Part shown: piece after piece, positions 1,939-62,899 of the stretch | Position numbering within the stretch: position 1 is the stretch's first letter | How the letters are laid out: every line of letters starts with the position of its first letter | NCBI GenBank assembly: GCA_006384855.1 | Contig: VCJN01002251.1 | Coordinates: 62,001 to 126,000 of the forward strand | DNA length: 64,000 bases | DNA from: Tetraselmis striata | Lineage: Eukaryota > Chlorophyta > Chlorodendrophyceae > Chlorodendrales > Chlorodendraceae | Reading direction: 5' to 3' | The notes under the pieces: generated by a model | Seen by the model: the letters and a program-made list of their open reading frames with translations, nothing else | Databases searched by the model: none | What the model was told of the DNA's origin: nothing | Translations under genes and position numbers: made by a program

Positions 1939-3705
1939 CTACTTGAACTCCAGCATCATGTTGTTCTCCGGCTGCAGCCCCACGCACGCGCGGAACACGT
2001 TCTCAATCATCGCGCGCTGCTTGGCCAGCGCGTTGACCACCGGCGTGCCCTCCGGCACCACCGGCGCCTTGGTCAGGTACGACAGCAGCACCGCCACCGG
2101 GTGCAGCCCGTGGAACTCCGGCTCCCCGGCGCGCTTGATGTTGATGCGCGTGATGAGCTCCGCCAGCAGCACGAGGTCCAGGATGATGGGCGCCGCCAGC
2201 AGGCTGTCCTCGCAGGTGTTGTGCATGACGATGGTGTTCTTGCCGCCCATGAAGATCTCGCTGGTGTACTCGTCCATGGCGCGCTTGGAGTCGCCGACGT
2301 AGGGGATGTACTTGATGACGACGCAGTGGTCGGGGTGCTCCCCGTCCTGGTACAGCAGGCCGTTGGAGGCCACCATGTCGTCCACCACGTTGCTCTTGGA
2401 GATCTCCTTGCTGCGGAAGGTCTGCGGCGCGCTGAGGTTCATGCCGTCGTTGTTGCCCAGGTGGTTGTAGCTGACGATGGACACCGGCTTGATGCCGGCG
2501 CCCACCAGGAAGTCCACCAGCACGCTCTTCATCTTGGTCTGCCCGCTCTTGAAGTCGTCGCCGCCGATGAGCACGCCCGCCTCCACCGCCGCCTCCATGA
2601 CGCCGGGGACAAAGGTGTTCTGCGGGCTGCCGTTGATGAAGGGGGTGCGCTCGTTGATGCAGGCCAGCGCGTACAGCGAGGAGGGCGAGATCTCCGCCTC
2701 GTCGCGCTCCAGCGCCGCCAGCAGGTTGGCCTTGGTGTCGTTCAGGCCCTCCGCCACCTCCGCGTAGCGCTCCGTGTTGGCGGTCCACAGCACCACCACG
2801 CTGTCCAGCGCGTGCGCCGCCTTGAAGGCGCGGATGTCGGCCTGGATGGCCGCCACCTGCTGCGCCTTGGTTCCCTTCAGCACGTTGTTGGCGCGCTCTG
2901 CCTGGTTGGCGGCGATGAAGGAGGGGTCGTAGATGCCGGGCAGCGGCACCACCTCCTTCATGTGCGGCACCAGCTGCTGCTGCAGCTCCCAGTCCAGCAC
3001 CGCGGCGCGCTCCATGGCCTCCGCCATGTTGAGCGCGCTGATGTCCCAGCCGCCCAGCACCACGTCGTTGGGCTCCACCATGGGCAGCAGCCCCTTGAAG
3101 GGGACGTGCACCTCCTCGCCCTTGTAGTTGCCGATGCGGCAGGTGGCGGCCTGCGTGAGGGAGCCCCAGTAGTTGGGCTTGCGCACGCCGTCCTTGGTCA
3201 TCCAGGTGATGCCCAGCTTGTTGGCCAGGATGCCCGCCATCAGGGTGCTGCCGTTGTTGCCGCCCAGGCCCACCAGCATCACGCTGCGCGCATGAGGGAG
3301 AGAGGGGGCGGCGGGGGGTCAGCGGCGCCGGATGGGAGGGCCGGTGGGATGTTGCCCTCTCCTGCGTCGGCATTGCTATCTCGCCATGCCACCCGCGATG
3401 CCACGCGGTCGACGGGCGGCGCCGAGGCACCCTGTCGCAATTGTGCAGCTGGTATACACTAGCAGGGCTGAGGAGGGGGTGATGGGGGGATTCGGCGAGG
3501 TGGACGCGGTGGGGGCAGGCGCTCACCCTAGCTTGGGAACCATGCGGTCCACCTTGAGCTGCACCTCGCTCTCCCTGGGCTTGCACACGAACGCGCCCGC
3601 CTCGTCGCAGGACAGCTCGGTGCTGGAGTAGCTGTAGCGTGAGTGGATGGCGTCGTCGGTGTAAGTCACGGAGGGCGACTCCACGCGGAAGGTGTCGACC
3701 AACAT
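1939..3705 (-). CDS. INO1: Inositol-3-phosphate synthase (MIPS), 2 exons
   Basis: The enzyme converts glucose-6-phosphate to myo-inositol-3-phosphate with NAD+, the committed step of inositol synthesis, in the cytosol. Exon 1 is 3705-3527 and exon 2 is 3283-1939. The single 243-bp intron has GT..AG ends and splits the Gly codon of PKLGV. The 507-aa product matches the family's usual length of about 510. It begins [11 protein letters not shown], as plant and algal members do, and this decides the start although an in-frame ATG lies upstream at 3825. Visible motifs are the NAD-binding GLGGNNGST (about residues 65-73), GWDIS, the lysine-rich [33 protein letters not shown] and a C-terminal [11 protein letters not shown] fragment of its 3' end is duplicated downstream at 1063-1144. 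Its 5' flank adjoins a recombinase element. No break or missing key residue was seen. Confidence 0.97.
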
Positions 3706-4118
3706 AGCGGCGGTGCGGGGGGATGGGTGGATGGGGGCGGCGCTGTGGCGGGTCGATAGAGCGCTTGCTGACAGTCGGAAACGCTGGATGGGTGAGCGGC
3801 TGAGTGGTCGCGGGTGTGCTGGCACGACGTTGTGCTGAGAGGATCAAGGAGCGAGTGCGGTCGGTTTGTGGTCCGAGAATCCGCGGCGGCGCCTTTTTAT
3901 TGATATGAACCACCGCATCACCGCGCGCAACCGAGGGCTCCGCCCGGCCTGGGGACCCGAACGGCCCGACCCTGGCCAGAAAGCATGGCACGGAAGAGGT
4001 GAACCGCCACGCCTTGCACTCGCGGAGTGAACATTGGCTGCACGTGTGATTAGTACGTACCACTAGCGACCAGTAGCAGCAAACTACGAAGCGACGAGTA
4101 CCGCAGTGATATCATGTG
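3706..4118. other. INO1 5' flank
   Basis: This is the 413 bp between the INO1 start and the adjacent mobile element, so the promoter must lie here or inside that element. It is GC-rich with several CGC/GCG runs. No clear TATA box was identified. The long open frame crossing it on the minus strand (up to 4063) is a shadow frame of INO1. Confidence 0.5.
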
Positions 4119-4144
4119 TTTCAAAGTTGAGTCTGGTTTTGCCA
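4119..4144 (-). repeat. Split direct repeat B2, copy A
   Basis: A 26-bp terminal sequence (minus: TGGCAAAACC...CTTTGAAA), repeated at 4424-4449 (B1). It marks the 3' end of element copy A. The same B2 end is found in copy B. Confidence 0.8.
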
Positions 4145-4237
4145 AAAAGGTCGCGCAGGCTTTTTTACACGGTCAAGAGCCGAAATTGGCAGGAAGGTTT
4201 AGCGAAAAGCGTGGAGGGAAAACGGAGTCAGGGGGGG

Positions 4238-4423
4238 CGCTGCGTGGAACGCAGCGAAAACTGGAAGATGGCAGGCTCAGCTGTTCTGGCTGCTTTTATG
4301 TCTACTCGTGCTGCACCCAACAAGGGCGCAACAACAGTTACTAGTTCCCGTACCATTGCGCAGCACTTGTAGCTGAAAAGCGGTTAGGTCAAGGATGGAA
4401 ACCCCATAAACTAGTTTAGATCA
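4238..4423 (-). repeat. Split direct repeat A2, copy A
   Basis: A 186-bp repeat matching A1 at 7133-7318. Its inner end is a short palindrome (CGCTGCGT, 3-nt loop, ACGCAGCG) at 4238-4256. It is joined directly to B1 on the recombinase side. Confidence 0.85.
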
Positions 4424-4449
4424 TTTCAAAGTTGAGTCTGGTTTTGCCA
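4424..4449 (-). repeat. Split direct repeat B1, copy A
   Basis: A 26-bp repeat abutting A2, 54 bp beyond the recombinase stop. It equals the terminal B2 at 4119-4144. Confidence 0.8.
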
Positions 4450-4502
4450 GTCTTGAGCGAACGTAGAGAGCGGTGGATTGACGGAGAAGGGGTAGCGCCA
4501 AG

Positions 4503-6128
4503 TCATGAGGGAGGCACTGGGAAGGCCACCGCTGCGGAGTCCTGTTGGACTTGGAAGTGGCGGAGGGGGGCGATGTGTCCAAAGAAGAACCACGCGCCAG
4601 GAGAAGGAAGAACGTTGGGGTCGATGTAGTCCAGAACGACATCGGAGTTAGTGGCCCAACCGCCTTGGTAGCGGATGTGGGACAGTGGTGCTCCGATGGC
4701 GTTCGCTGCAGAGGCTGCGCCCTTGCGTAGACTGTGTGAAGTCCAGGAAGTGCCAGCAGGAGGGGCAGCGTTGACTAGGTTGACTGCTGTAGACAACCAG
4801 TCTGACATCGTAGCCGCAGTCCAAGGTTTTGACTGCTCAGCCACATTGACAGCCCAGAAGTTGGAGGCAGCCAAGCCAACAGTAACCAGGGGGACAGACT
4901 GGACGTTGCTGATGAAGTAGCGCAAGAGTCGTGCCACTCGAGGGTGCTCGGACACTGGAAGGAGAAGTACGCGCAGGTCGTCGGGTCCCCGACGGCCAGC
5001 TCGACCCTTCTCGCGGTAGATCTGCAAGGTGATGTTGTAGGTGTCGACATGCACATCTTGCGCTCGACAGGAGACGCCAGTAAGGCCCCTGGCAAAGAAC
5101 AGGAAGTTGACGACCGAGGCCAAGAGGGCTCGGTAGTCGAGGTGGGACTCTGGGTAAGGAGCAGACACAATTAGCTCGGCCTTTGAGACGAAGCGGTAAG
5201 CGACATCCGCGGGCAGAGGGACACGCAGAGGGGCAGCGTCCAGTCGGCGCTGCCGCAACATTAACCCACGCCTTGCCGAAGTGAGGTGTAGGCTGTCCTT
5301 GGCGATCGGGACGAGGTTGTGCAGCTCGAAGAAGGTGTTGATGGCAGACAGGTAGGGCTGCAGCGACTTAGCTGCGATGTGCCCTCGCTCCCCGATCCAG
5401 GCAACGTACCGAACAACAGTAGCAGTAGTTGCTTCCAACGGGCTGATGTTCTCGGAGTCGTGGCAGAACTCAGCGAACTGAGACAGTCTGCCGGCGTAGC
5501 TCTTGAGGGTCTGCGCGCTGAGGGAGCTGGAGAGCAGGTCCAACGTCCGCTGGCCCAGCTCGTCTGAGCCGAACGCGTCCTGCAGCCGAGATCGCAGTGA
5601 CGCAGCCCATGGAGCGATAGCTGCGGGCTCGTCGATTACGTAAGTGCGTCGTTTTACTGACAGAGTTCCACCGGTACGGCTACTGTTCGCAAAGTACTCG
5701 GCAGCAGCGGTTAGGTTCCCGGCGGTTGGCCGGTAGTTGCTGGACGGGTTTGCAGTAGCTCCAGTACGGGTTTGCGGGGCTAGGTTCAGGTAGGAGGGCC
5801 GCCCCGCGCGCCCTTCGCGCTCGTAGCGCCTGTCCCGTGCGTAACGTACACGCGCGAAACTTGGTCGTTGCGAACCGGTTGTAACACGTAATGTAACAAC
5901 CGTCGAACGCAGAGATGGGGTTCTAAGAAAGGCGGATGGTTGAGCCGCCGTGTGCAGGTGTGCGGATGGTTGAGCCGCACTCGGCTGTAGCTGTAAGAAG
6001 CGCCGCACCGAGGAAGGTCTAAATGAAGTCTGTAAGGTGGGGGGGTCAGGTCCTGACACAGGGCGCTCATCCCGCCGTTGAGCTGCAAGGGTGCGTCTTG
6101 CGGCGGTCACCGAAAGGTGGCCTCGCAA
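4503..6128 (-). CDS. Tyrosine recombinase of the DIRS-like element (intact)
   Basis: A 541-aa DNA strand-exchange enzyme that probably integrates a circular form of the element. The N-terminal 150 residues are Arg/Pro/Ser-rich. A SAM-like core-binding segment follows (SAQTLKSYAGRLSQFAEF). The catalytic domain shows Box I Arg in LTGVSCRAQDV, a basic YREKGRAGRRG strand with a candidate Lys, HSLRKG (HxxR), GGW in the His/Trp position and the nucleophile Tyr in VLDYIDP. All the tyrosine-recombinase residues are present, so this copy could be active. The gene follows the Gag-like ORF on the same strand with a gap of about 36 bp and ends 54 bp before B1. In copy B the equivalent gene is broken. A Crypton-type DNA transposon recombinase is the alternative, but the split direct repeats favour the DIRS order. 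Confidence 0.88.
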   Translation of the reverse strand: MRGHLSVTAARRTLAAQRRDERPVSGPDPPTLQTSFRPSSVRRFLQLQPSAAQPSAHLHTAAQPSAFLRTPSLRSTVVTLRVTTGSQRPSFARVRYARDRRYEREGRAGRPSYLNLAPQTRTGATANPSSNYRPTAGNLTAAAEYFANSSRTGGTLSVKRRTYVIDEPAAIAPWAASLRSRLQDAFGSDELGQRTLDLLSSSLSAQTLKSYAGRLSQFAEFCHDSENISPLEATTATVVRYVAWIGERGHIAAKSLQPYLSAINTFFELHNLVPIAKDSLHLTSARRGLMLRQRRLDAAPLRVPLPADVAYRFVSKAELIVSAPYPESHLDYRALLASVVNFLFFARGLTGVSCRAQDVHVDTYNITLQIYREKGRAGRRGPDDLRVLLLPVSEHPRVARLLRYFISNVQSVPLVTVGLAASNFWAVNVAEQSKPWTAATMSDWLSTAVNLVNAAPPAGTSWTSHSLRKGAASAANAIGAPLSHIRYQGGWATNSDVVLDYIDPNVLPSPGAWFFFGHIAPLRHFQVQQDSAAVAFPVPPS

Positions 6129-6164
6129 GGCGCCTGCAGCTCCGACGAGCGGCGCCCCACGCCG

Positions 6165-7019
6165 TCACTCGTGCTCACCTTCGCGGCCGCGTCCACGTCC
6201 GCCGCCACGTCCTCGCCCACGCCCGCGACCTGCAGCTGCAGCCGCTACTCGAGAAGTAGCGGTCGCCTTGGCGCTGCTGGCAACGGTCGCCTCGAAGACA
6301 CGACGCTCGTAGTCCCTCATGAGGTCCCCAAAAATCGCAGAACCCAAATGCTCCGAAGCGGGCTGAAAATGTTGAGCCCGCAGCACATCCAGAACACCTT
6401 GGTCACCGTGCACACGCTTGATCTCATTCAGCCTCCGCAGGAAGGCTAGACGAAAACGAAACGCCTTGTCGATGGCCTCGGCGTGATTTCGAGCTCTCGC
6501 GAGGTAGGGGGTGAAGTCCTGGTTAGTGGCGGGGACGTAAGGTAGCAGCTCGTCGAGCGCCACGAAAAGGGCGGCCATGTGGGCCCCGAAACACGACATC
6601 CACAAGTACTCCTCCTGGGCCGGCAGACGCCGGTCATCCTGCCTGAGGTACTCGTTCGTTAGGTCGGTGCTCAAAGGGAAAAGTCCAGGCACTCGGCTGA
6701 CCGGTCGAACGGCCTCGTAACCAGACTCTGCTCTCTGCAGTAGCTCTGGCACCGCGAGGTAATCATCCTCGGCACTCACGGATTTTGCTCCGACACGGCC
6801 GCTCTGGGCTAGCTCTAGCAAGTCGGGGCGCTCTGCGGCTCCCCCGCTGCCTGTCGGCTGTCTCGCGAAGCGCTGCCCTGAGTCGGAGCCATGTGCCCCT
6901 TCTCCATCAACAACGCGATCTCGAGCCGTCAATTGTGCCACAGCTGTAGCCAATGCACGCACATCTGCTTGCAACGACTTGAGCGTCGGCTCAACGACGG
7001 GTTCTTCTCCATCTGACAT
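6165..7019 (-). CDS. Gag-like ORF1 protein of the DIRS-like element
   Basis: A 284-aa protein beginning MSDGEEP. The first 60 residues contain a short heptad-like stretch (LKSLQADVRALATAVAQL) that could be a coiled coil. The middle is mostly helical and Leu/Ala-rich. The C-terminus is an Arg-Gly tract (GRGRGRGRGGGRGRGRE), as in RNA- or DNA-binding Gag proteins. No zinc knuckle is present. It lies between A1 and the recombinase gene, the usual place of DIRS ORF1. The same-length protein is encoded at 25971-26825 with few substitutions, which indicates that it was under selection when the family spread. The Gag role is inferred from position and the RG tail. Confidence 0.7.
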   Translation of the reverse strand: MSDGEEPVVEPTLKSLQADVRALATAVAQLTARDRVVDGEGAHGSDSGQRFARQPTGSGGAAERPDLLELAQSGRVGAKSVSAEDDYLAVPELLQRAESGYEAVRPVSRVPGLFPLSTDLTNEYLRQDDRRLPAQEEYLWMSCFGAHMAALFVALDELLPYVPATNQDFTPYLARARNHAEAIDKAFRFRLAFLRRLNEIKRVHGDQGVLDVLRAQHFQPASEHLGSAIFGDLMRDYERRVFEATVASSAKATATSRVAAAAAGRGRGRGRGGGRGRGREGEHE

Positions 7020-7132
7020 AGTAACGCACGGACGTACGGACAAGAATATCACACTCGGATGGCGAGCCGGGTGTGGTCTTGAACAACCTGGGGTGACCTT
7101 GCTCGCAACGGGTTACGAGACAGTTTTTACAT

Positions 7133-7318
7133 CGCTGCGTGGAACGCAGCGAAAACTGGAAGATGGCAGGCTCAGCTGTTCTGGCTGCTTTTATGTCTAC
7201 TCGTGCTGCACCCAACAAGGGCGCAACAACAGTTACTAGTTCCCGTACCATTGCGCAGCACTTGTAGCTGAAAAGCGGTTAGGTCAAGGATGGAAACCCC
7301 ATAAACTAGTTTAGATCA
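7133..7318 (-). repeat. Split direct repeat A1, copy A
   Basis: The 186-bp 5' terminal repeat of element copy A, same as 4238-4423. It contains a TATA-like segment only in copy B's version; here the matching sequence reads TTTATGTC/GACATAAA. The palindrome lies at 7133-7151. Confidence 0.85.
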
Positions 7319-20854: not shown

Positions 20855-22685
20855 TGTTGGGAAAGGGGGGGGGGGGGTGAAAGAGAGGGGGGGGGGGCAG
20901 AGTACAAGTGGCCGGGAGAGGCGTGCGGCAGCACCTTGGACGTGCCCATCTTGCCCTTCACGTCGTCGTACGCCAGGGTGCGCTTGCGCAAGCGGATCAT
21001 CTGCAGCTGCCCGAGGATGGCGCGCAGGTCGCCGTTGGCGCCCTCCACAAGCGCGTTCATCGTGGCCTCGTTAACCTGGGGTCGCATGCCCATGAGCGTC
21101 ATGCCATGTCAGGCAACCGCATCAGCAGGGCCGGCATCTACTTTCAGGGGGGGGGGGGGGGAGGGGGGCTAATGCAGCTCTGTCCTGGCAGCTCGGGGCT
21201 GATGGCACATGCACAGACGCAGAGACGCAGAGACGCACCTGCAGGCCGCGGTTCGCTGCGATGGCCAGCATGCGCTTGCTGATCTGCATCGTGGTGGGGC
21301 GCTTGTAGTCCAGCTCCATCGTGTGGTTACGCAATGACTTGAGCTTCTGGGAGTACTTGTCATTGCAGATGCAAATGATGGGCACCTGGCGGTGCCAAAG
21401 CCATAGACCATGTCATGAGACTTACCCCCCCCCCCCCCCCCCCCCGGTGTCTGCCACACAGGGTGCATTCCTGTGACATCTTCGGTGCGCTGCATGCCCA
21501 GGAGCCAAACCGCCTCACCTTGGCCTTGGCGATTATCTTGATGAGGTCGCCGATGCCGCCGCGGTCGCTGCCGCTCATGCCGTCCACCTCATCCATGACA
21601 ATCACGGTCTTCCGGGCGCCGGCCCCGCCGCACGCGCCGCCGATCCCCATTGCCGTGTTGGTTGACAGCTCCCTGATGACGTTGGACAGCTTGCCGTTCA
21701 CACCCTGCAGACCGAACGCAGGTCAGTCCGTTGATGAAAACGAGTATCGCACAGTTGGGGGATTGCTTCCTCTGCTCTTTGGGGGCCTGGGTGGGGAGTG
21801 AATCCCCTTTGCATCCAACACTGCTGCTGTTTCAATGCCATAATTTGCAGGTCTGGACGAGCATGTGTGCCATTGAGCGGGGCGGCATGTGGCCACAGAG
21901 CTGGCCGACCTTCAGGGCAGAGGCATCCGAGGTGTTCCGCGTGTCGGAGGCATTGACCTCCACGGCGTCAAACCCGAGCTCTTTGCACACCATCAGCGCG
22001 GAGCTGGTCTTGCCAATGCCAGGCGGACCTGGGCGCCAGACGAAGATCGCGAGCGCGCGCTGCATGTCATGGTTTGTTTTCGGGAAGCGTGCGTGGGCAT
22101 GGGGAACATGCCATTTAGGGGGTGGGGGGTTACTCACCACTGAGAAGCACCGCCCGCTTGGTCATCGCCTCCTGCACCTTCTTGCTGCTACTGGCAGCCT
22201 TGGGTGCCGGCTTGCCCTCGATGAACTGGCTGTGCCATGCGCGGAGCCACACGCCCAGGGTGCTCACCAGCGTGCCGTTACCGACGAGGTCACGTATGCT
22301 GGTGGGCTTGAAGAGGTCCACCCACAGCTGCGAGGGCTCGCCGCCCGCGGTGGATGGCCCCGCGTCCGCAGTGGCAGCCGCCGGCTTGGGCGCAGCAGAG
22401 GAGGCGTCGGTGCCGCGGCGGGAAGCGGGGGGCGCGGGCTTCACTGGCGCAGCTGCTGGTGCGGCTGCGGGGGCTGCGGGGGTGGGGGTGTCGGCCGCGG
22501 GGGCAGCGGCGATGAGCGAGAACAAGCCGTCCTCGTCGATGAGGCGGACGTTGCACTCCTTGGCCTGTGCTCGGCGCACACAGAACGAGCCAGGCATGAG
22601 ACGGAGCTAGGCATGAGGATGCGGAGGCATGCTGTGCTGTAGGCTGACACATGTGACACTGATTGGGCGGCGGGACATGGGGGCG

Positions 22686-22737
<52 letters not shown>

Positions 22738-24209
22738 CGGTGGGTGGGGGGGGGGGGGGGGGGGGGGGGACGTGGAGCAATGTGCCAACCGTGCAGGCCT
22801 GGAGCGCACCTTGTTCAGCTTGCTGTTGCCGCACTCCATGCCCACAAGCAGAAACGTGGTCTTCCTCGACACGTTGCCCGTGACACGACCGCCGTGGCGC
22901 TTGATCAGGTCCTCCGCCTGCTCACGCCGCAGGCTGTCCAGCACGCCCGAGATCACAAACGCCAGGCCTGCCAGGCAGTCGGGGTGCCCCTTGGGCTCCT
23001 CCTGAGCACCACGGGACCAAGCACCGGGCAATACCATCGTCACTCGCGGGCGGCACGCGAGCTGGAACCCCCTCCTTTGAGCTCAGGGGCGGCCACGGGT
23101 GTTAGCCTCGTCCCATCGGGCGGCTACCTTGTTCCCCGCGTTGGCGGGGTTGTCCGGTGGCCGCTGTGCCCAGCTGCCCGACGCCATCACCGAAAACTTC
23201 AACTCGCTGTCCGGGGGCAGCTTCTCCATGGCCGCAGCCACCGCGGCGGCCGCCGGGCCGGCGCCCGCAGCTGCTGGCGGGGCTTCCTTCTGCACGCGTG
23301 GCACGTCCGTCCTCACAATGACTCAATCAGGAACCGCCCATCGCGCCCTCGCCCCCCTTTGCACCCCCCGTCTTCAGCGCTTTAGCACTGCTCTCCCCGA
23401 TCTCTGTGACCCCACCTTCAACACGGGAGCAGGCGCCTTTGCCGGCGTCTTCACAGGCGTCTTCACAGGCGTCCTCCCCTTAGCAGGGGCGGGGGCGGGG
23501 GTGGGGGCGGCGGCCCGGCTGCGCTTGGCGGCAGACTTCTTGGGCGCCTCGTCCTCGCTGCTGTCATCCAGCACCACCTGCGCGTCGCTGTCGCTGCTCG
23601 ACTCCTGCCAACCGGCGCAAGGAAGCTCCCTCAGCGGGGAGGGCGGGGGGGGGGGGGGGGGGGGAGGCACTGCGCTGCGGCAGGCCGGCCCATGATCGCA
23701 TCCAACGGCAGAGCCCGAGCACTGGCCAGGGCCTCACCACTTCAATGTCAAAGTCTGAGTCCGAGTCCGAGTCAGCCTTCCGCTTGCTCGCCTGTGTATC
23801 CGGCAGGATATTGAGGCTGGGAAAGCCGGCGGAGGAATGTGGGGCGACATGGCCTAGCTGGTGCAGCTGATTCATGCGGGGGGGGTGAGGGGCGGGCGGG
23901 GGTCACCCTCGGTGCGGCCTTCTTGGCGCTCCCCTTCTTTGGCGTGGCCTTCTTTGCGGGTGACTTCCCTTTGGCGGGCGTTCTGTGCGCACACGCGTTG
24001 CCCCGCCTCAGCCTCTCGGAAAGCCCCCCTCCCCCTGGTTGCCCCTTGCCCGCCCCCCTGTGCCAAGTCCCTATGCCGTGAGAGGGACGCAGCACCGTTG
24101 CTTGGCGGCGTCCTTGGGGAAGAACTTGCTCTTCTTGCCAGAAGGCGGATCAGGCTCTGCCTTGGGCGCCTACATGGACACAGTGTTCAGCTTCTTGGAA
24201 GTATCACCC

Positions 24210-24744: not shown

Positions 24745-25670
24745 TCGATGTTAGCCAAGCGTGCCTATGATTGCGCTGCGCCATCGTAACTTGCGGCCAA
24801 ACAAAGGGAGCTGACGGGGAGGGGGAGAGGAACGGTCAGACGGACAGGGTTGTTGGGGTTGGGGTTGGGCCGGGGGGGAGGGGAGGGGGGGGTGGAGGGC
24901 GCGTGCCTTCGGAGGCATTTCGCCGCCGCAGATGACGGCGCCTCGGCGCGTTCTCTCTGTAGCCCGAAGTACGCGCTTATTCGTTTCGCGCTGGCCCGGG
25001 CGGGCGCTGAATCCGATAGCTGCGCACCAACGGTGAGCAGGGTTGGTAATGCGGACAAGTGGGATGCTGCAGTTTGGCAACCGCAAGCCACCAGCGACCG
25101 TGTAGTTCGCGACGATTACCTACCTGTACAACCCGCCTGCTTCTGCTTTTAGCAGTAAGTGGATTTGTTACTGCCCATTTTGTAATTCGCACCGATACTT
25201 CTACTTTCGGGTACAACCCGCCTCCGCATTTTAGCGCCTCACCGAGTCACCGCCAGCTCTGTCCGCCAAATGCAGTAGCGACTTACCGGTGTTTTAAATA
25301 TGGTACCGGAGATACTGCTTTTACCGGTGGATTTGTTACTCGTATTTTTGTAACTCACACCGATAGCCGCCCTACTGCGCTGGCGGATGAAGAATATAGC
25401 GAAATGAAGAATATAGCGAATGTAAAAATTAAACATAGTAGCTTATGCGAGAACATATTTAGCGCTACTCATGATGTATTTCAAATATTTACTCATGCCG
25501 CACATTCTTTTGGTGCTGCTTCCACCTCGCAACTGCTGTAGTGGACGTTCTCTACTGCCTATTCGGGTGGTTTCCTGATCGCCTGTTGCAGCTAGCTCAT
25601 GGAACTACATATAATGCGAGAGTATATGATGCGACTACTGCGCCGCTACGTCCCGGCGTGTCCTGGTTTA
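24745..25670. other. RFC1 5' flank
   Basis: About 925 bp between the RFC1 start and the second DIRS-like element. It contains short degenerate direct repeats around GTAATTCGCACCGATA (25181, 25353). No gene or clear core promoter motif was recognised. The RFC1 promoter should lie in the first few hundred bases. Confidence 0.5.
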
Positions 25671-25857
25671 TGTTTTAAACTAGGTTATGGGGTTTCCTCC
25701 CTTGACCTAACCGCTTTTCAGCTACAAGTGCTGCTCAGTGGTACGGGAACTAGGCATCTGTTGTTGCGCCCTTTTTGGGTGCAGCACGAGTAGATATAAA
25801 AGCAGCTAGAACAGCTGAGCCGGCCATCTTCCAGTTTTCGCTGCGTTCCACGCAGCG
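25671..25857 (+). repeat. Split direct repeat A1, copy B
   Basis: 187 bp, repeated at 28578-28764 with few changes. It contains TAGATATAAAAG (25791-25802), a possible TATA box for the element's transcription. It ends in the palindrome CGCTGCGTTCCACGCAGCG. Confidence 0.85.
25791..25802 (+). promoter_or_regulatory. TATA-like box inside repeat A1
   Basis: TAGATATAAAAG lies about 170 bp upstream of the Gag-like start codon and recurs in A2. It could direct transcription of the element. Copy A has a changed sequence at this point. Inferred from sequence only. Confidence 0.35.
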
Positions 25858-25970
25858 ATGTAAAAACTGTCTCGTAACCCGTTGCGAGCAAGGTCACCCC
25901 AGGTTGTTCAAGACCACACCCGGCTCGCCATCCGAGTGTGATATTCTCGTCCGTACGTCCGTGCGTTACC

Positions 25971-26825
25971 ATGTCAGATGGAGAAGAACCCGTCGCTGAG
26001 CCGACGCTGAAGTCGTTGCAAGCAGATGTGCGGGCACTGGCTACAGCTGTAGCTCAATTGACGGCTCGTGAGCGCGTTGTTGATGGAGAAGGGGCACATG
26101 GCTCCGGCTTCGGGCAGCGCATCGCGGGACAGCCGACAGGCAGCGGGGGAGCCGCAGAGCGCCCCGACTTGCTAGAGCTAGCCCAGAGCGGCCGTGTCGG
26201 AGCAAAATCCGTGAGTGCCGAGGATGACTACCTCGCGGTGCCAGAACTACTGCAGAGAGCAGAGTCTGGTTACGAGGCCGTTCGACCGGTCAGCCGAGTG
26301 CCTGGACTCTTTCCCCTGAGCACCGACCTAACGAACGAGTACCTCAAGCAGGATGACCGGCGTCTGCCGGCCCAGGAGGAGTATTTGTTGATGTCGTGTT
26401 TCGGGGCCCACATGGCCGCGCTTTTCGTGGCTCTCGACGAGCTGCTGCCCTACGTCCCTGCCACCAACCAGGACTTCACCCCCTACCTCGCTAGAGCTCG
26501 GAACCACGCCGAGGCCATCGACAAGGCGTTTCGGTCTCGTTTGGCGTTCCTGCGGAGGCTAAATGAGATCAAGCGTGTGCACGGTGACCAAGGTGTTCTG
26601 GACGTGCTGCGAGCCCAGCATTTTCAGCCTGCTTCGGAGCATCTGGGTTCCGCGATTTTTAGAGACCTCATGCGAGATTACGAGCGCCGTGTCTTCGAGG
26701 CGACCGTTGCCAGCAGCGCGAAAGCGACCGCTACTGCTCGAGTGGCGGCTGCAGCTGCAGGTCGCGGGCGTGGGCGAGGACGTGGCGGTGGACGCGGGCG
26801 TGGCCGCGAAGGTGAGCACGAGTGA
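25971..26825 (+). CDS. Gag-like ORF1 protein, copy B
   Basis: 284 aa, same start (MSDGEEP) and length as the copy A protein at 6165-7019, with scattered substitutions such as VVEP to VAEP. It has the same helical middle and the same Arg-Gly tail. The frame is fully open even though the neighbouring recombinase is broken. It ends 36 bp before the recombinase ATG. Nucleic-acid binding is inferred from the RG tract. Confidence 0.7.
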   Translation: MSDGEEPVAEPTLKSLQADVRALATAVAQLTARERVVDGEGAHGSGFGQRIAGQPTGSGGAAERPDLLELAQSGRVGAKSVSAEDDYLAVPELLQRAESGYEAVRPVSRVPGLFPLSTDLTNEYLKQDDRRLPAQEEYLLMSCFGAHMAALFVALDELLPYVPATNQDFTPYLARARNHAEAIDKAFRSRLAFLRRLNEIKRVHGDQGVLDVLRAQHFQPASEHLGSAIFRDLMRDYERRVFEATVASSAKATATARVAAAAAGRGRGRGRGGGRGRGREGEHE

Positions 26826-26861
26826 CGGTGTGGGGCGCCTTTCGTCGGAGCTGCTGGAGCT

Positions 26862-28498
26862 TTGCGAGGCCACCTTTCGGTGACCGCCGCAAGACGCACC
26901 CTTGCAGCTCAACGGCGAGATGAGCGCCCCGTGTTAGGGCCTGACCCCCCCACTTTACAGACTTGCTTTAGACCTTCCTCGGCGCGGCGCTCCTTACAGC
27001 TACAGCCGAGTGCGGCTCGACCATCCGCACACCTGCACATGGCGGCTCAACTAACCGCCTCCCGTACCATTCCATCACTGCGTCCGTCGGTTGTTACACT
27101 ACGTGTTACAACTGGTTCGCAACGACCAAGTTTCGCGCGGGTACGTTACGCGCGTGACAGGCGCTACGAGCGCGAAGGGCGCGCGGGTCGGCCCTCTTAC
27201 CTGAACCTAGCCCCGCAAACCCGTACCGATGCTACTGCAAACCCGTCCAGCAACTATCGGCCAACCGCCGGGAACCTAACTGCTGCTGCCGAGTACTTTG
27301 CGAAGAGTAGTCGTGCCGGTGGAACTCTGTCAGTAAAACGACGCACTTACGTGATTGACGAGCCCGAAGCTGTCGCTCCCCGGGCTGCTTCATTGCGATC
27401 TCGGCTGCAGGACGCGTTCGGCTCAGACAAGCTGGGCCAGCGGACGCTCGATCTACTCTCCAGCTCCCTCAGCGGTCAGACACTCAAAAGCTACGCCGGC
27501 CGGCTGTCTCAGTTCGCGGAGTTCTGCCACGACTCCGAGAGCATCAGCCCGTTGGAGGCGACTACTACCGCTACTGTCGTTCGGTATGTTGCCTGGATCG
27601 GCGAGCGGGGGCACATCGCGGCTAAGTCGCTGCAATCTTACCTATCTGCAATCAACACGTTCTTCGAGCTGCACAACCTCGATCCAATCGCCAAGGACAG
27701 CCTACACCTAACATCAGCAAGGCGTGGGCTGATGCTGCGTCAGCGCCGACTGGACGCTGCCCCTTTGCGTGTCCCTCTGCCTGCGGATGTAGCTTACCGC
27801 TTCGTCACAAAGGCCGAGCTGATTGTGTCTGCTCTTTTCCCAGAGTACCACCGCGACTTCCGAGCCCTCCTGGCCTCGGTTGTCAACTTTATGTTCTTTG
27901 CCAGGGGCCTTACTGGCGTGTCATGTCGAGTGCGAGACGTGCATGTCGACGACTACAACATCACCCTGCAAGTGTACCGAGAGAAGGGTCGCGCTGGTCG
28001 ACGGGGACCCGACGACCTACGCGTACTTCTCCTCCTAGTGTCTGAGCACCCCCGAGTGGCATGTCTCCTGCACTACTTCCTCGACCACGTCCAGTCAGTC
28101 CCTCTGGTTACTGTTGGCTTGGCTGTGTCAAACTTCTGGGCTGTCAGTTCGGATGAGCAGTCAAAACCTTGGACTGCGGCTACGATGTCAGACTGGCTGT
28201 CCACAGCCATCCGTCTGGTCAACTAACGCTGCCCCCCCTGCTGGCACCTCCTGGACCTCGGACAGTCTTCGCAAAGGCGCAGCCTCTGCAGCGAACGCCA
28301 TCGGTGTGCCATTGTCCCACATTCGCTACCAAGGCGGTTGGGCCACTAACTCTGACGTCGTTCTGGACTACATCGACCCCAACGTTCTTCCTTCACCTGG
28401 CGCATGGTTCTTCTTTGGACACATCGCCCCCCTACGCCACTTCCAAGTCCAAGCAATATGACTCCGCAGCGGTGGCCTTCCCAGTGCCTCCTTCATGA
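26862..28498 (+). pseudogene. Tyrosine recombinase, copy B, frameshifted
   Basis: The frame is open from 26862 to 28226 (454 aa). A 4-nt insertion relative to copy A (GTCAAC-TAAC-GCTGCC) near 28221 then causes a stop just before the second catalytic block. Downstream, in another frame, the block is still readable: SWTSDSLRKG, GGW, VLDYIDP. The histidine of HxxR is Asp here, so even an unshifted protein would lack a conserved residue. Another 4-nt length change near 28450 alters the C-terminal tail. Box I Arg (LTGVSCRVRDV) is intact. This copy would need enzyme supplied in trans. Confidence 0.85.
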
Positions 28499-28551
28499 CT
28501 TGGCGCTACCTCTTCTCCGTCAATCCACCGCTCCCTCCGTTCGCTCAAGAC

Positions 28552-28577
28552 TGGCAAAACCAGACTCAACTTTGAAA
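28552..28577 (+). repeat. Split direct repeat B1, copy B
   Basis: 26 bp, equal to B2 at 28857-28882 and to both B repeats of copy A. Confidence 0.8.
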
Positions 28578-28764
28578 TGTTTTAAACTAGTTTATGGGGT
28601 TTCCTCCCTTGACCTAACCGCTTTTCAGCTACAAGTGCTGCTCAGTGGTACGGGAACTAGGCATATGTTGTTGCGCCCTTTTTGGGTGCAGCACGAGTAG
28701 ATATAAAAGCAGCTAGAACAGCTGACCCTGCCATCTTCCAGTTTTCGCTGCGTTCCACGCAGCG
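28578..28764 (+). repeat. Split direct repeat A2, copy B
   Basis: Partner of 25671-25857, directly joined to B1. It ends in the same short palindrome. Confidence 0.85.
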
Positions 28765-28856
28765 CCCCCCCTGACTCCGTTTTCCCTCCACGCTTTCGCT
28801 AAACCATCCTGCCAATTTCGGCTCTTGACTGTGTAAATTTGCCTGCGCGAAATTTT

Positions 28857-28882
28857 TGGCAAAACCAGACTCAACTTTGAAA
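28857..28882 (+). repeat. Split direct repeat B2, copy B
   Basis: Terminal 26 bp of copy B. The following CGCCGTTGATGC belongs to the interrupted host repeat. Confidence 0.8.
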
Positions 28883-39710: not shown

Positions 39711-40680
39711 CTCTTCCCCCTCGCGCCGTTCCACCTGTTTTTTTTTGGCTTGGGAAGGGACTTCTGGAGGAAATTTGTCACCGTGCATTGCCACATTGGA
39801 TTCCGAGCTATGAAGCAGGAAGACCGGCGCCAGGCTTTAGTCCCGATACCCAGCAACTTTGAACGCGGGTTGCGCCCTTCGTTTGCAGTGTCCAAGAATC
39901 GAAAGGTAACCCCCCCCCCCCCCCCCCGGGCGTGGGCGTGGGCGTGGGCGTGGGCGTGACGGCATTCCCCTCCATGACTGCAGGGTCAGGCAAGGTGACG
40001 GTGCAGTCCGGCTGGGTCATGGAGGACTGCTTGCACCACATGGAAACGTTTTCCATTCTTAACGCCGGTCCGCTGCTCGAGGAGGCCCGGGTGAAGGCGA
40101 TCATGACCGAGAAGGAGCTTCGCGTCCCCAGGCGGTGCTTGGGCACATGTACAAGCGCATGCAAGGAGCTGCGTGGTTCGTCACGCGGTGGGGGTTGCAG
40201 AATGTGGTGACGGAGGAGGACGGCCCCGAGCGCAAGGCGCAGGTGGACGCGCTCACTAGGGAGGGGAGGACTCGATACCCCGCGCGGCGCCAAGGCGCGG
40301 CGGCCGGGGCAGCGCGGCGCCAAGGCGCGGCGGCCGGGGCAGCGCGGCGCCAAGGCGCGGCGGCCGGGGCAGCGCGGCGCCAAGGCGCGGCGGCCGGGGC
40401 AGCGCGGCGCCAAGGCGCGGCGGCCGGGGCAGCGCGGCGCCAAGACAGCGCATACAGCGGAATCGGCGGAAAGGGATGCATTACAAGCTGTGGACGGCAG
40501 CCGCTGAAAACTATGCGGTCATGCCGCAACAACCCCAGCACTGGCTTCTGGATACCTTTGATCTGGCTGACGGCGGCGGGCTGCGGGATGCAGGGCCGCA
40601 TGACTGAGGTGGCGGTGCTGGTGAGCCCGCAGAGTCTGCATGCGGCGGAGGCGGCGCAGCCGCATAGGCACTAGACAATG
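39711..40680 (+). CDS. Hypothetical downstream exons with 10-aa repeat tract
   Basis: Open segments look like exons of the same or an adjacent gene: about 39703-39905 (GFRAMKQEDRRQALVPIPSN), about 39986-40128 (VTVQSGWVMEDCLHHMETFS) and a segment from about 40132 after CCCCAG (AVLGHMYKRMQGAAWFVTRW). The last runs through a 30-bp minisatellite encoding AARRQGAAAG repeats and on to a stop near 40674. Phases between these segments could not all be matched, so the model is incomplete. No family was recognised. Confidence 0.3.
40282..40441 (+). repeat. 30-bp minisatellite, 5.3 copies
   Basis: The unit begins GCGCGGCGCCAAGGCGCGGC. Copies start at 40282, 40312, 40342, 40372, 40402 and 40432 (partial) and are identical or nearly so. 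In frame with the upstream exon it encodes AARRQGAAAG. Confidence 0.95.
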
Positions 40681-58029: not shown

Positions 58030-58154
58030 GGTTATGATGCCCTCCTAGCCTCACAGCGTCGCTTCCCGCTGTGTGCTCCGTCTCGTCGCGCCGCGCCCGC
58101 CTGCACGGCGCGCCATCTTGGCCCTGTCGCCCGGTTTTTTCCGTGAGCGTTTGT

Positions 58155-58920
58155 ATGTCCGACAGCCCGCCCCCGCCGCCGCCAGGCGCAGGCGGATCAT
58201 CCGACCAGTGGCCCGCACTCGGTCAGTCCTTTGGCCCCCTGTCCCCTGCCTCCTGGGGGCAAGTCAGCTCCGCAGCGGCACAGCGCGCCGTGCAGATCCA
58301 GCAAGCTGCCTCAGCCGAGCAGATGTCCCAGATGGTCGCGGAGATGCGCACCATCGCGCACGATGCTGCCACTGCCGCCACCCGCGCGGTAGTGCAGGAG
58401 CTGCGCCAGCCCTCGCTCTCGCCCAAGCCTGACCCATGCGACACAGCACACCATGCCGCCACGTCCGCCCCTGCTCCTGCTCTGGTTCCTGCTTCCATGC
58501 CGCCCCCGCTCTCTCCTGGTTCCCTTGGTGACGATCTTGGCGCTCTCCCTGTCGCGCCCCCTCGCCAGCTCGGCGCGCATGACCTTGGCCGCTCCCTCAA
58601 GACCGCTCTCTCCCAGTTCTCGACAACTGACTCCTGGCCCATCTACCGCGACGATTTCCTCGCCCACCTGACGACTGTCAACCCCGTCCTTGTCGCTGTC
58701 CTCCTTGGGGCTCGTCCACCAGCACACGGCCTGACCGCGGAATCGTTCAGTCTCTTGCAGTAACAGCTCTCCGCCACGCTCACTTTTGTCATGAAGTCTC
58801 ATCCGACGGCTGCCACACGCCTCCGGAACTTGAGGCGCTCGGACACCTTCGCTGCCGCCGACAACCCCGGCACCCTGGCTTGGGACCAGCTGTGCACATA
58901 CACACCTCGACTGCCGAGGC
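58155..58920 (+). pseudogene. Copia gag, N-terminal part
   Basis: From the ATG at 58155 (MSDSPPPPPPGAGG) the frame is open to a TAA at 58761. It continues after the stop (QLSATLTFVMKSHPTAATRL) and is then replaced by the next frame near 58900. A Gln/Ala-rich helical segment (AAAQRAVQIQQAASAEQMSQ) could be a coiled coil. The region before DSWPIYRDDFLAHL resembles the start of the Copia capsid. The stop may be real decay or a base-call error. Confidence 0.75.
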
Positions 58921-60873
58921 GTGGCTCGCACTGTGCGCCACCTGTTGGCTCTCCAGCAGCCGCAGTCACCGTCTGAGGATCAGGGGGCCTTCACCCAGCG
59001 CATGCTGAACGCCTATCACGAGCTCAACGACAGCCATGTCTCCCTGCACTCCAACGTGCTCCACGAGAACGTGCTCGTCGCTGCTACCCTCGCTGGCATG
59101 CACAACACAGTCGCCAGAGACACCATACTCTCCGCCCTCGACGCAGCCGAGACTCGGGCGGAGGACATCTCCTACGGCCGCCTGTGCGACATGATGCACC
59201 GCCACCCAACGACTCCCGACAGCAAGCCAACCCGCCCCGGCCAAGACGTTGCCGCCTTCGCTGCGGCTATGCACACTCAGCTGCACTCGCAGGTGGAGGC
59301 TGCGGTCGTCGCCGCTATGGCCCGTGCCCCCCCTCCGGCTCGACCCCCCTACGCTCGTCCTCCCCGTGGTGGCCCGCAGAACAACGCCCGGCAGCATCCG
59401 CCCACGACCCCGTGCCGCATCTGCGAATCGCAAGGGAAGGGCAAGCGTTTCCACTGGCATGCGCACTGCCCCCTGAACCAGGCTCCGGCTGCGCCAACTG
59501 TTGCGCCGCCTCCTGCCCCCGCCACTCATCAAGCTGTTGTTTCTCCCGTGTCGGCTGCGTCGGCGTTTTCCGATGAACTCTCCCAAATGATGGCCTTCCT
59601 CGGCAACCCGGACAGCGCAGCTCCTAACGCCATGATGGCACATGCGGGGCCGAGTGGCATCCATGCTGGTTTCCTTTCGGTATTCTGTGGGAAGGCCGCC
59701 GCCCCGCTCCCCGTCGCCGCCTCCGGCATGTTTCTTGTCGACGGTGGTGCCAACATCTTCATGGAACCCGACGTCTCGCGCTTCTGCGCCTACTCCCCCT
59801 TGACCACCCCGGTCCCGTGCTCTGGCCTCGGCGTTGACATCCTCGGCTTTGGCTCAATTGACGTCTCCGTTGTCTACACCGATGGTGTCAGCCGCCCCCT
59901 GACAGTGCGCGCGGCACATGCCCCCGGCATGACGGCCAGTGGCGCTCCTACCATCCTCTGTCAGGAATACCTTCGTCGCGAGCACGGCGTCAGCTTCTCG
60001 TATCCTGCTCGAGGGGCGCCCTCCGCCACGGACTCTCACGGCTCCCTTGTCCTCACCGTGGTCAATGACCTGCCCTTTCTCACCGGTGGCCACTCCGATT
60101 CTCCTGGTACAGCCCCTCCATCTGCGTGCCTTGCCTACAAGGGCCCGCCTGAGTCGCCGCCTGATGCCCATCGCTTGCACCTTCGCCTCGGCCACCCTGG
60201 CAGGGACGGCATGAAGGCCTTGCTTCGCTCGGAGTCCGTCGTTGGTGTTCCTGCTGCTGCGGATGCTACCTTGCCAGACTGCGAGCCCTGCATCATGGGC
60301 AAGTTGCGACACGCTAGCGTCTCTCGCGCTCCTGCCAGCGTTGTTCAGCCGTTCTCGGATTTTAGCTCTGATGTCTTCGGTCCCGTGGATGTCCCCGGGG
60401 TAGGTGGGGCCAAGTTCCTCCTCGGTGTAATCGATCACTACTCCAACTACATCTGGCTCGCTGCCCTCTCCTCCAAACGAGATATCATCACCCAGCTTCG
60501 CCTCGTCCTGCTGCAAATTCGCACCATCTGCTCGAAGGCCGGTCAGCGCCGCTTTGCCCCGTCCATCAAGTTTGACTGTGACCCCAACTACCTCGATACG
60601 GCCTGCCGGTCCATGGTTCGCGAGTGTGGCTTCTCTGATAGGTTCACTGCCCCATACGCTCACCACCAACTCGGTCGCGTCGAGCGTCGTTGGGGGAGTC
60701 TGGGTCAGCGAGCAGTCTGCCTCATGCAACATAGCCACGCGCCTCGCCGGTTCTGGGGCCTCGCCATGCGTCATTCTGCTTTCCTTGCGAACAGGCTTCC
60801 GTCCAACGGCCAACGGTGCTGGTGGAGTGCCCTATTGCCTCCTCCACGGCGTCCCGCAAGTCGATCTCAGTGA
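58921..60873 (+). pseudogene. Copia gag C-terminus, protease and integrase
   Basis: A 650-codon frame. In order: capsid remainder (LHENVLVAATLAGM); zinc-knuckle-like CRICESQGKGKRFHWHAHC; protease FLVDGGANIFM (Copia usually has D-S/T-G-A, here DGGA); the HHCC integrase zinc domain (HLRLGHPGRDGMKAL ... CEPCIMGK); and the integrase core with Asp in SSDVFGPV, Asp in KFDCDPNYLD and Glu in HHQLGRVERRWG. It ends by frame change near 60830. Confidence 0.88.
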
Positions 60874-61474
60874 CCTCCGTGTGTTCGGTTGCACTGCCTA
60901 CCTCCGTCTTGAGGACCGCTTTCATCTCAAACTCGAGCCCCGCGCTCTCAAGTGTATGCTGGTTGGTCAGTGCGATGACGGCCCTGGCTATTGGCTTTAT
61001 AATCTCCAGTCCGGCCGCGTCATTCGCTCCGTCCACGTTGCCTTCCTCGAGGGGATTCCGGCCCATGCGCCTCCGCCGTCCACACCAGCCGATGTGCCCC
61101 CATGTGCTCATCTCGCCGGTCCCTCCCAAGACGCGGCTCGCTTCGCTAGCCCTTTCGCGGCGGCTGCAGCCACAGCTACGCCGGTCTTCTCCCGTCCTAC
61201 CAAGCGCCCCGCGCCTCCGGCCAGCCCGGCCTCCGATTGGCATGAGCTGGACGCCTCGCCGGTACCTCCTGCCGTCGCTCCGGGCCAGTATCCTCCAGCG
61301 TCCCGCATCCCGGTGCCTGACACCATCAAGCAGGCGCTCGCTGGCAAATACCACAAAGAGTGGCGCGCATCTATCGTCAGTGAGCTCCGCTCCCTCCGCG
61401 CTCGAAACACCTTTGCCTACGCCCGTCTCCCGGTAGGTGGGACGGCATGCTATCGGCAACAAATGGGTCTTTAA
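60820..61474 (+). pseudogene. Copia integrase C-terminal region
   Basis: Frame of 60554-61474, meaningful from about 60820: LRVFGCTAYLRLEDRFHLKL and YWLYNLQSGRVIRSVHVAFL, the GKGY-like Copia integrase tail, then a Pro/Ala-rich linker and AGKYHKEWRASIVSELRSL at the RT entry. It gives way to the next frame around 61440. Confidence 0.8.
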
Positions 61475-61856
61475 GGTCAAGGCCAACTCCGATGGCAGCG
61501 TCAACATGTTCAAGGCCCGCCTAGTGGCTCAGGGTTTCAGCCAGCAAGCCGGGGTGGACTACCACGCCACTTTCTCCCCCGTCGTCAAGCTCAGCACCCT
61601 CCGCACGTGTCTGGCCGTGGCCGCTGCCCGCGGCATGCACATCCACCAGATCGACATTGAGACAGCCTTCCTGAACGCCTCCCTCAAAGAGGAGATCTAC
61701 ATGCGACAACCTAAGGGCGCCGAGGATGGCACGGACAACGTCCTTCGCCTCCTCAAGAGCATCTACGGTCTCAAACAAGCCTCCCGGGAGTGGTATGAGC
61801 TCATCCACAAAACGCTCACTGGTCTTGGCCTTGCGCGCTCCAACTCCGACTGACAT
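61437..61856 (+). pseudogene. Copia reverse transcriptase, N-terminal part
   Basis: AIGNKWVFKVKANSDGSV, KARLVAQGFSQQAGVDYHAT, FSPVVKLSTLR, HQIDIETAFLNASLKEEIYM and SIYGLKQASREWYE are classical Copia RT blocks 1-5. The frame ends at a TGA at about 61852. One extra base there restores continuity with the next segment. Confidence 0.92.
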
Positions 61857-62420
61857 CAGCATGTACAGCATGAACCACCCACGGTACGGCATCTGCATCG
61901 TCCTTGTGCATGTGGATGACATCCTCGTCGTCTCCGACTCTGTTGAGTGGATCCGGTCAGCCAAGTCCGCAATTGGTGCTGAGTTCAACATGACCGACTT
62001 CGGGGAGGCCGCCTTCGTCCTGGGCATGGACCTCACTCGTTGCTGGGCTTCCGGCACCATCCGACTATCCCAGGAGCAGTACACGCTCGAACTGTTGGAA
62101 AAGTACGGCATGCAGGACTGCTCCCCGGCCAAGACCCCCATGGGCAGTGGCCACTACAAAGATCTTGCTTGCGCCAGCGACGCCGACAAGGCCCCGCTCT
62201 CCCGCGAGGACCATGAAACGTATCGCGCCATCCTGGGCTCTGTCAACTTCCTCACGATGTGCACCCAACCGGACCTCGCCTTTGCTATCAACGTCCTCAG
62301 CAGGTTTCAGTATGCCCCGCAGAAGATCCACCTCATGCAGCTCAAACGGGTACTCCGCTATCTCAAGGGCACCCCTGGCATGGGCATCACCTACGGAGCC
62401 ACTGAACCGGGGGGGGGGGG
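61840..62420 (+). pseudogene. Copia reverse transcriptase, C-terminal part
   Basis: YGICIVLVHVDDILVVSD holds the catalytic Asp pair (HVDD instead of YVDD). LSQEQYTLELLEKYGM, AILGSVNFLTMCTQPDLAFA and LMQLKRVLRYLKGTPG follow. The frame fails at a run of 12 G (62409-62420). Confidence 0.92.
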
Positions 62421-62899
62421 CTCGCCTCGTAGTCTACTCAGACTCCGACTGGGCCGCGGACACCAACAACCGGCGCTCTCAGTCCGGTGACATCAGCATG
62501 CTCAATGGTGGTGCCATTGGATGGAACTCCAAACAACAAGACACCACAGCGCTCTCCACCACTGAGGCTGAATACGTTGCCCTCAACAGAGCGGCACAGA
62601 ACACTGTGCACTTCAGGCAGCTGCTGCAAGACATCCACCAACAGCAACAAGGGCCCACCATTGTCTATGAAGACAACCAAGGAGCAGTCAAACTTGCCAA
62701 CAATCCCATGGCTTCGCACAGAACCAAGCACATCGACATCAAGCATCATTACACTCGAGACCTAGTGGATGCTGGAACGATCTCTGTCACCCCCATCGCT
62801 ACATCAAAGATGCTGGCCGATGGGCTCACCAAAGCCTTGCCTGAACCCACTCACACACTGCTGTTTAGACAATGCATGGGCACTAAGTCAACTGTATGA
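62421..62899 (+). pseudogene. Copia RNase H
   Basis: YSDSDWAADTNNRRSQSGD, LSTTEAEYVALN, VYEDNQGAVKLANNP and HRTKHIDIKHHYTRD are the RNase H acidic residues and conserved blocks. It stops at TGA 62897-62899, just before the polypurine tract. Confidence 0.92.

Follow-up and report, generated by a model that had tools for sequence, protein, structure and literature searches.

A compact 3,200-bp mobile element of the green alga Tetraselmis striata carries, in one frame divided by a single UGA, the coding sequences of a Gag-like protein and a tyrosine recombinase, and it is probably a semi-autonomous PAT-like tyrosine-recombinase retroelement, which supplies its own Gag and recombinase and borrows a reverse transcriptase (RT). 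We analyzed a window of 64,000 nucleotides (GenBank assembly GCA_006384855.1, contig VCJN01002251.1, positions 62,001 to 126,000, forward strand), in which the element occurs twice on opposite strands, as copy 1 (4119-7318) and copy 2 (25670-28882), with 91.4% identity over 3,208 aligned positions. In the orientation of the open reading frames (ORFs), the order is A1, ORF1 (Gag-like), ORF2 (recombinase), B1, A2, a spacer of about 93 nt and B2, with the following features, which belong to copy 1 unless otherwise stated.

7133..7318, minus strand: split direct repeat A1, at the 5' end with respect to the ORFs, with a TATA-like CATAAAA about 123 nt in
6168..7019, minus strand: ORF1, Gag-like, 284 amino acids (aa) from the first ATG, with an RG-rich basic tail
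6165..6167, minus strand: lone in-frame UGA dividing ORF1 and ORF2, followed by CGG
6053..6164, minus strand: extended RNA stem-loop, predicted by folding, immediately 3' of the UGA
4503..6164, minus strand: ORF2, tyrosine recombinase, 553 aa (SAM-like domain, PHROG integrase match, Cre C-terminal match)
4424..4449, minus strand: B1 repeat, 26 nt, adjoining A2
4238..4423, minus strand: A2 repeat, 186 nt
4145..4237, minus strand: unique A2-B2 spacer, containing TGTAA
4119..4144, minus strand: B2 repeat, 26 nt, at the 3' end with respect to the ORFs
25670..28882, plus strand: copy 2, whole
25670-25857, plus strand: copy 2 A1
25971-26822, plus strand: copy 2 Gag-like frame
26823-26825, plus strand: copy 2 TGA
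26826-28226, plus strand: copy 2 recombinase frame, interrupted
28552-28577, plus strand: copy 2 B1
about 28578-28764, plus strand: copy 2 A2
28857-28882, plus strand: copy 2 B2

Both repeats of copy 1 were 100% identical between their two occurrences (A, 186 nt, 4238-4423 and 7133-7318; B, 26 nt, 4119-4144 and 4424-4449). The A repeats of copy 2 measured 188 nt (25670-25857 and 28577-28764, 98% identity), and its B repeats had the same 26-nt sequence as those of copy 1 (28552-28577 and 28857-28882). An earlier reading made from the sequence alone had described two opposite 3.2-kb copies with this layout and with split direct repeats of PAT/Ngaro geometry, and both descriptions held, the repeats and ORFs being located in each copy. 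It had further placed the same two ORFs in both copies, about 36 bp apart; the Gag-like and recombinase frames are present in each, but the recombinase of copy 2 is interrupted (466 aa open versus 553 aa), and instead of a gap there is one frame parted by one TGA in both copies (in copy 1, ORF1 span 6165-7112 and ORF2 span 4503-6164, minus strand). B1 adjoins A2 without a gap, and the B1-A2 junction is an exact internal copy of the would-be B2-to-A1 junction; since every copy thus holds the circle-junction sequence, reads of a plain B-A join cannot diagnose circles.

To count copies, exact patterns were matched genome-wide in the 224-Mb assembly with the reversed pattern as control, a procedure that misses copies altered within the pattern and includes tandem units. 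The B1-A2 junction gave 849 matches, the gag-stop context 863, the recombinase-B1 end 662 and the A1-internal (5') end 640, each with 0 in the reversed control. The 849 junctions and their single length class bear out the earlier proposal of a lineage, and a one-off deletion was rejected; the contrast with the control likewise establishes that the B repeats are real and not chance matches. Positions were known for the first 100 places of each pattern, and junctions were judged on contigs C1 to C333. Among the 99 listed junctions (of 849), 77 had an exact recombinase-end and/or gag-stop pattern at the family spacing; 20 of the other 22 were read as 301-nt stretches, and 19 of these 20 ran into the 3' end of the family recombinase (best piece 138-307 nt, 71-97% identity to the family). 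The L085 and L084 junctions depart from the family after 146 and 178 nt, respectively. At L095 (C221:161380-161680), 53 nt of the family B1 end are followed by a methyltransferase-like repeat, a part that occurs in at least 39 other places, none of the 39 matching the A/B part. This locus, a chimera or nested insertion, was rejected as an RT-bearing sister, its methyltransferase-like part belonging to another repeat family.

Spacings told the same story of compactness. Among listed matches, the distance from gag stop to junction was 1,625-1,760 bp in 50 of 52 cases, and 64 of 75 listed 5' ends (of 640) could be paired to one of the listed junctions, the spacing being 2,686-2,763 bp for 60 of the 64. 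The remaining paired 5' ends lay at 2,508 and 2,589 bp, which is shorter, and at 3,923 and 11,351 bp. A gag-stop-to-junction spacing of 5,010 bp (C225) was rejected as a mispairing, as the stop is followed by its own recombinase and B1-A2 junction, and the junction in question has a different 5' end 2,731 bp ahead of it; spacings of 5,633 bp (C165) and 11,351 bp (C29) also look like mispairings, and the 3,923-bp spacing (C225:41097) may hold an insertion. The element would be about 2 kb longer with an RT-RNase H block, and no RT-bearing size class is present among the 64 paired 5' ends and the 52 gag-stop spacings, and no RT was seen between the ORFs, in agreement with the earlier description of a compact family without its own RT. 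Many copies are 97-100% identical, and at L039 (C2631:17000-22200) an old, frame-broken copy with 78% identity, in which the UGA-CGG block is kept, adjoins a near-identical young one. Viral contigs yielded one pattern match and no relative.

ORF2 matched the integrase SAM-like N domain of Pfam over its cut-off (33.3 bits) and the Pfam integrase domain below it (18.8 bits), resembled a PHROG integrase family (E 2e-5), and aligned at its C-terminal end with Cre across HxxR, GGW and Y (E 0.006); the first R and the K of the recombinase were spotted by eye. Neither ORF gave a Pfam match to RT, RNase H or a methyltransferase domain, and ORF1 had no Pfam Gag match. The ORF1 protein, which has one Cys in total and no zinc finger, weakly resembled the CCHC Gag fragment of RT696, an RT-bearing family described below (22.5% across 151 aa with E 0.005, uncorrected for composition; 26.9 bits versus at most 21.9 in 100 shuffles). 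Its position, its RG-rich basic tail and this similarity weakly suggest that ORF1 is Gag-like. Variants were counted by codon position in 29 copies, kept from 32 aligned sequences after L004, L017 and L031 had been dropped (adjoining divergent copy or Gag missing). Positions 1/2/3 held 31/23/89 variants in Gag and 29/27/113 in the recombinase domain (third-position excess versus one third, P about 1e-12 and 6e-19, respectively), and variants with at least two carriers numbered 16/8/43 and 7/4/33. Because of this excess, both frames can be taken to be under purifying selection, as judged from sequence variation. A 21-nt in-frame insertion is common to 19 of the 28 copies compared with copy 1.

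The UGA between the two frames appears to be a leaky stop. In copy 1, the ORF2 frame has no ATG before codon 302. The stop triplet was TGA in 98 of the 100 listed places (of 863), a weak sign of selection, because the pattern itself fixed CGG and young copies change little; UGA-CGG stood in 25 of 26 unique sequences, the remaining one having UGA-UGG. When 54 coding windows of 110 nt were folded (60 shuffles each), the lowest z score (-5.0) fell on the window starting at the base after the UGA, the second lowest being -2.8. With 300 shuffles, the z scores of the post-UGA region were -4.8 (copy 1) and -4.2 (copy 2), and a wider stretch scored -2.9 (200 shuffles). The predicted stem begins 1-8 nt past the stop where the stop is unpaired; in copy 2, L044 and L045, the best predicted fold pairs the stop as well. 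Across the 26 unique sequences, 1,080 of 1,170 stem pair cells were unchanged, 41 had a one-sided change that kept the pair, 4 a two-sided change that kept it, and 45 were broken, so that compensatory evidence for the stem is slight. In a published type II readthrough signal, UGA-CGG is followed within a few nucleotides by an extended stem-loop (PMC3542737, PMC5382211). The element has UGA followed by CGG, where the type II feature is CGG or CUA, and its predicted extended stem-loop, starting 1-8 nt past an unpaired stop, agrees with the type II distance of about 8 nt. Copy 1 and six close relatives among the 29 copies form the youngest sublineage, in which the ORF2 frame has no ATG before the SAM-like domain and is still open. 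Within the first 141 nt past the UGA, a window picked after inspection of the data, variants at positions 1/2/3 numbered 2/6/14 (14 of 22 at the third, P 0.003 versus one third). On this model, the recombinase is likely made as a Gag-recombinase protein by readthrough of the UGA.

Other observations pull away from readthrough, and they bear on the expression step only. The next 120 nt lack codon-position bias (6/12/8), with coding-like variation again further on; as 2/6/14 gives way to 6/12/8, the first part of the stretch from the UGA to codon 72 looks translated and the rest relaxed. A consensus-like splice donor (AAG/GTGAGC) lies 11 nt 5' of the UGA in all 26 unique sequences, including the 78% copy, and an in-frame acceptor candidate would give a 96-nt intron. 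Gag-recombinase could thus be expressed by splicing out a short UGA-containing intron, a route we regard as unlikely but worth keeping in view: judged by eye, the acceptors that have the best pyrimidine tracts lie out of frame, the third-position excess directly past the UGA weighs against an intron, and splicing leaves both UGA-CGG and the strong stem-loop unexplained. Internal initiation from a separate or shortened mRNA could start at an in-frame ATG at ORF2 codon 72, which is found in 18 of 29 copies, including copy 2, and which precedes the SAM-like domain inside the stretch of relaxed codon bias. That start is very doubtful, as the youngest set (copy 1 with the six copies closest to it) lacks this ATG and still has an open recombinase frame, and as such a start explains neither the coding-like pattern between UGA and ATG nor the stem-loop. 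Selenocysteine recoding of the UGA is unlikely, there being no selenocysteine insertion sequence among Rfam matches up to E 1.

With regard to insertion, the base before B was a purine at 32 of 32 left ends, where C was favored at -2 (18/32) and A was rare at -4 (1/32); at the right ends (n = 29; three were not located), T was favored at +1 (17) and A at +2 (22). An empty-site comparison was made for one insertion site of 29 joined sites, L027, whose joined flanks match at least 40 places; the two empty paralogues that were read were each identical at 138 of 138 bases, and insertion at this one site was precise, with no target duplication and no loss. Duplication-free insertion is typical of a tyrosine recombinase, unlike a DDE enzyme or target-primed insertion, so the absence of duplication and loss fits the former and argues against the latter two. 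The tandem arrays L081 and L082 have a period of 2,915-2,924 bp, which is close both to the circle length predicted and to the A-to-A length with the 21-nt insertion added, and in L082 (9.9 kb) the A2-B2 spacer is present once, at the array end. Such arrays would arise by insertion of a circle into an existing copy or by unequal exchange, both of which fit.

The repeats also carry a record of how the element may be copied. Between copies 1 and 2, the A repeats have 13 differing columns at which the inner and outer A agree within each copy, compared with 0 and 4 private differences. Because these 13 copy-specific differences are common to inner and outer repeats, the homogenized A repeats favor template copying over DNA-only movement; excision of the whole element is disfavored, since it would not homogenize the repeats, whereas copying through B1-A2 would. 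In the young set, inner and outer A were on average 99.6% identical (29 elements, 20 over part of A), and A identity between copies was 99.1% (406 pairs). The TATA-like box in A1 and the TGTAA in the spacer, which we take to be the green-algal poly(A) signal, would yield an RNA without both ends, which B1-A2 could restore. Copying through B1-A2 is required by the PAT/Ngaro model (PMC6681497).

A search for Dam methyltransferase turned up two RT-bearing PAT-like families in the same genome, RT696 and RT927. RT696 has a CCHC Gag, a 696-aa RT-RNase H-Dam ORF and a recombinase ORF; at least 20 Dam matches lie in open frames that are exactly 696 aa long. Two of these were read, and a scan of one showed RT, RNase H and Dam domains. 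The RT696 recombinase had no Pfam match and was named by its C-terminal motif. RT927 has a 687-aa Gag-like ORF, a 927-aa RT-Dam ORF and a 424-aa recombinase ORF whose SAM-like match is below threshold. Each family also has its own direct repeats, which measured 69 nt in RT696 and 121 nt in RT927 (one pair each in the stretch read). From their sequences, both families are plausible candidate RT donors. The loci L053-L055 and L057 represent two RT-Dam-recombinase families of the PAT type, with many open frames among those listed. A search with RVT_1 scored 150 of 3,001 candidates, for the most part frames of about 1,540 aa or their fragments, and gave no DIRS-type lead. Seven PF00589 matches were rejected as partners, L040-L043 looking bacterial by eye and L044-L046 being decayed copies of the family. 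The former (contigs C1804, C2009 and C396) are integrase genes with neighbors that by eye look bacterial, and probably represent bacterial contamination.

If the element is indeed a semi-autonomous retroelement with a borrowed RT, its transcript would start within A1 and end near B2, and Gag would be the main product, a few ribosomes passing UGA-CGG with the aid of the stem-loop to make Gag-recombinase. The RNA would be packaged by its own Gag and copied by the RT of an RT-bearing PAT-like family in the same cell; the internal B1-A2 would serve as the template that restores the ends missing from the RNA and closes the circle, which the element's own recombinase would then insert, favoring sites with a purine just before the B end. 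Because both are selected in an element without RT, Gag and recombinase would act mostly in cis and RT in trans. The sequence-only reading had left the choice between mobilization by an RT-bearing partner and an RT-free DNA circle, and the homogenized A repeats and the presence of RT-bearing PAT-like families favor RT in trans; it had also raised the prospect of RT-containing relatives with the same A/B repeats, and none emerged among the junctions and loci examined, the RT696 and RT927 loci having no repeat-level similarity to copy 1. This absence belongs to a set of points that count against the borrowed-RT reading. Copy 1 had no DNA match better than E 0.4 (13-41 nt) to seven RT696/RT927 loci, the recombinases of these families are barely similar to that of the element, and a partner with the same A/B repeats was not found among 97 of the 99 listed junctions (of 849). 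The Gag identity leans on position, basic tail and a weak similarity. When 28 copies were set against copy 1, 6 of them had frame-changing indels within the ORFs; these are expected after insertion, yet not all copies are intact. Moreover, the two A identities of the young set are too close to count for much, and the homogenization argument leans on copies 1 and 2.

The other explanations differ in where they place the RT, if any. An RT-free DNA transposon, whose recombinase excises and reinserts a circle and whose Gag-like protein serves in DNA binding or circle protection, agrees with the lack of RT in the family members examined, the conserved recombinase, the absence of target duplication at the one site read and the tandem arrays of about circle length. 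We consider it rather improbable, since excision would not homogenize the A repeats (13 shared versus 4 private differences), the B1-A2 copy is useful in end repair after reverse transcription and useless in cut-and-paste, and hundreds of copies require a replicative step. There is also a slim chance of a capsid-forming, recombinase-driven DNA-circle replicon that has no RT at all and has kept retroelement ends, a bridge between Crypton and PAT. A master copy that carries RT together with the same A/B repeats may have been missed because it is unassembled, rare or at other junctions: 99 of 849 junctions were judged and 64 of 640 5' ends paired, and L095, L085 and L084 depart from the family after 53, 146 and 178 nt. 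The single length class weighs against such a master copy, as does the assignment of the L095 sequence to a different repeat family (39 other places match that part, 0 the A/B part), and we find it decidedly improbable. Dead deletion derivatives, amplified passively and with ORFs intact through youth alone, would accord with the many copies of 97-100% identity and with the frame-changing indels in 6 of 28; this is highly improbable, however, as the third-position excess is kept among variants with at least two carriers and as the 21-nt insertion common to 19 of 28 copies is in frame.

Among known systems, TOC1 of Chlamydomonas reinhardtii is comparable to the element, as an abundant algal element with split terminal repeats that is regarded as non-autonomous; TOC1 is larger and is not known to be a conserved unit of Gag and recombinase. 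Cryptons are not known to have split direct repeats, and the element differs from them both in having such repeats and in conserving a second ORF beside the recombinase. It shares with Cryptons (PMC4157794, PMC3212892) a tyrosine recombinase without RT, but a Crypton has the recombinase domain alone (PMC4157794). RNA-type tyrosine-recombinase elements carry Gag together with a polyprotein that includes RT and RNase H (PMC4157794). PAT-like and Toc3-like elements of the DIRS order likewise have split direct repeats of the form A1-B1A2B2 (PMC6681497), the Toc3-like Gag also lacks a zinc finger (PMC4157794), and PAT-like elements are reported from all the Chlamydomonas-related species of PMC8226300. 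Unlike PAT-like elements, this one has no RT, RNase H or methyltransferase, measures 3.2 kb and holds Gag and recombinase in one frame across UGA-CGG. Because it lacks RT and methyltransferase, it is an RT-less variant that appears to work like a PAT-like element and not a full member of that group. At the one site read, it also inserted without target duplication, as PAT-like elements do.

The nearest parallel in logic is provided by the TR-GAG elements, non-autonomous long terminal repeat (LTR) retrotransposons that keep Gag, lack RT and are presumed to be mobilized by another element; they are LTR elements with Gag only, whereas the present element has split repeats and its own integrating enzyme (PMC8704663). 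Tca2 has a UGA between gag and the downstream ORF with a possible 3' RNA structure (PMC2194720), and type II signals of plant and other viruses combine UGA-CGG with an extended stem-loop (PMC3542737, PMC5382211), both as in the element; in those systems the downstream product is pol, a replicase or a coat extension, and in the element it is a recombinase. No RT-less family with Gag and recombinase was found in the open-licence PubMed Central literature, as far as its available parts go. Non-autonomous retroelements usually retain cis signals or Gag alone, whereas in this element the polymerase is precisely what is missing, and functions of a capsid-like and an integrating kind persist under selection at high copy number, providing a natural test of which retroelement functions must come in cis. 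One frame with one apparently leaky stop would offer a simple system for the Gag-to-recombinase ratio in tyrosine-recombinase elements, and the question of the RT donor is answerable within one genome that contains candidate donors.

Elsewhere in the window, a long ORF that by eye resembles inositol-3-phosphate synthase (1939-3318, minus strand) lies about 800 bp from copy 1, and ORF pieces at 22130-23082 (minus strand) look, again by eye, like the large, BRCT-containing subunit of replication factor C. A tandem repeat array with a 10-residue unit and several open frames on both strands occupies 39808-40674, and a Copia-like gag-pol element in several frames, also recognized by eye, spans 58038-62899.

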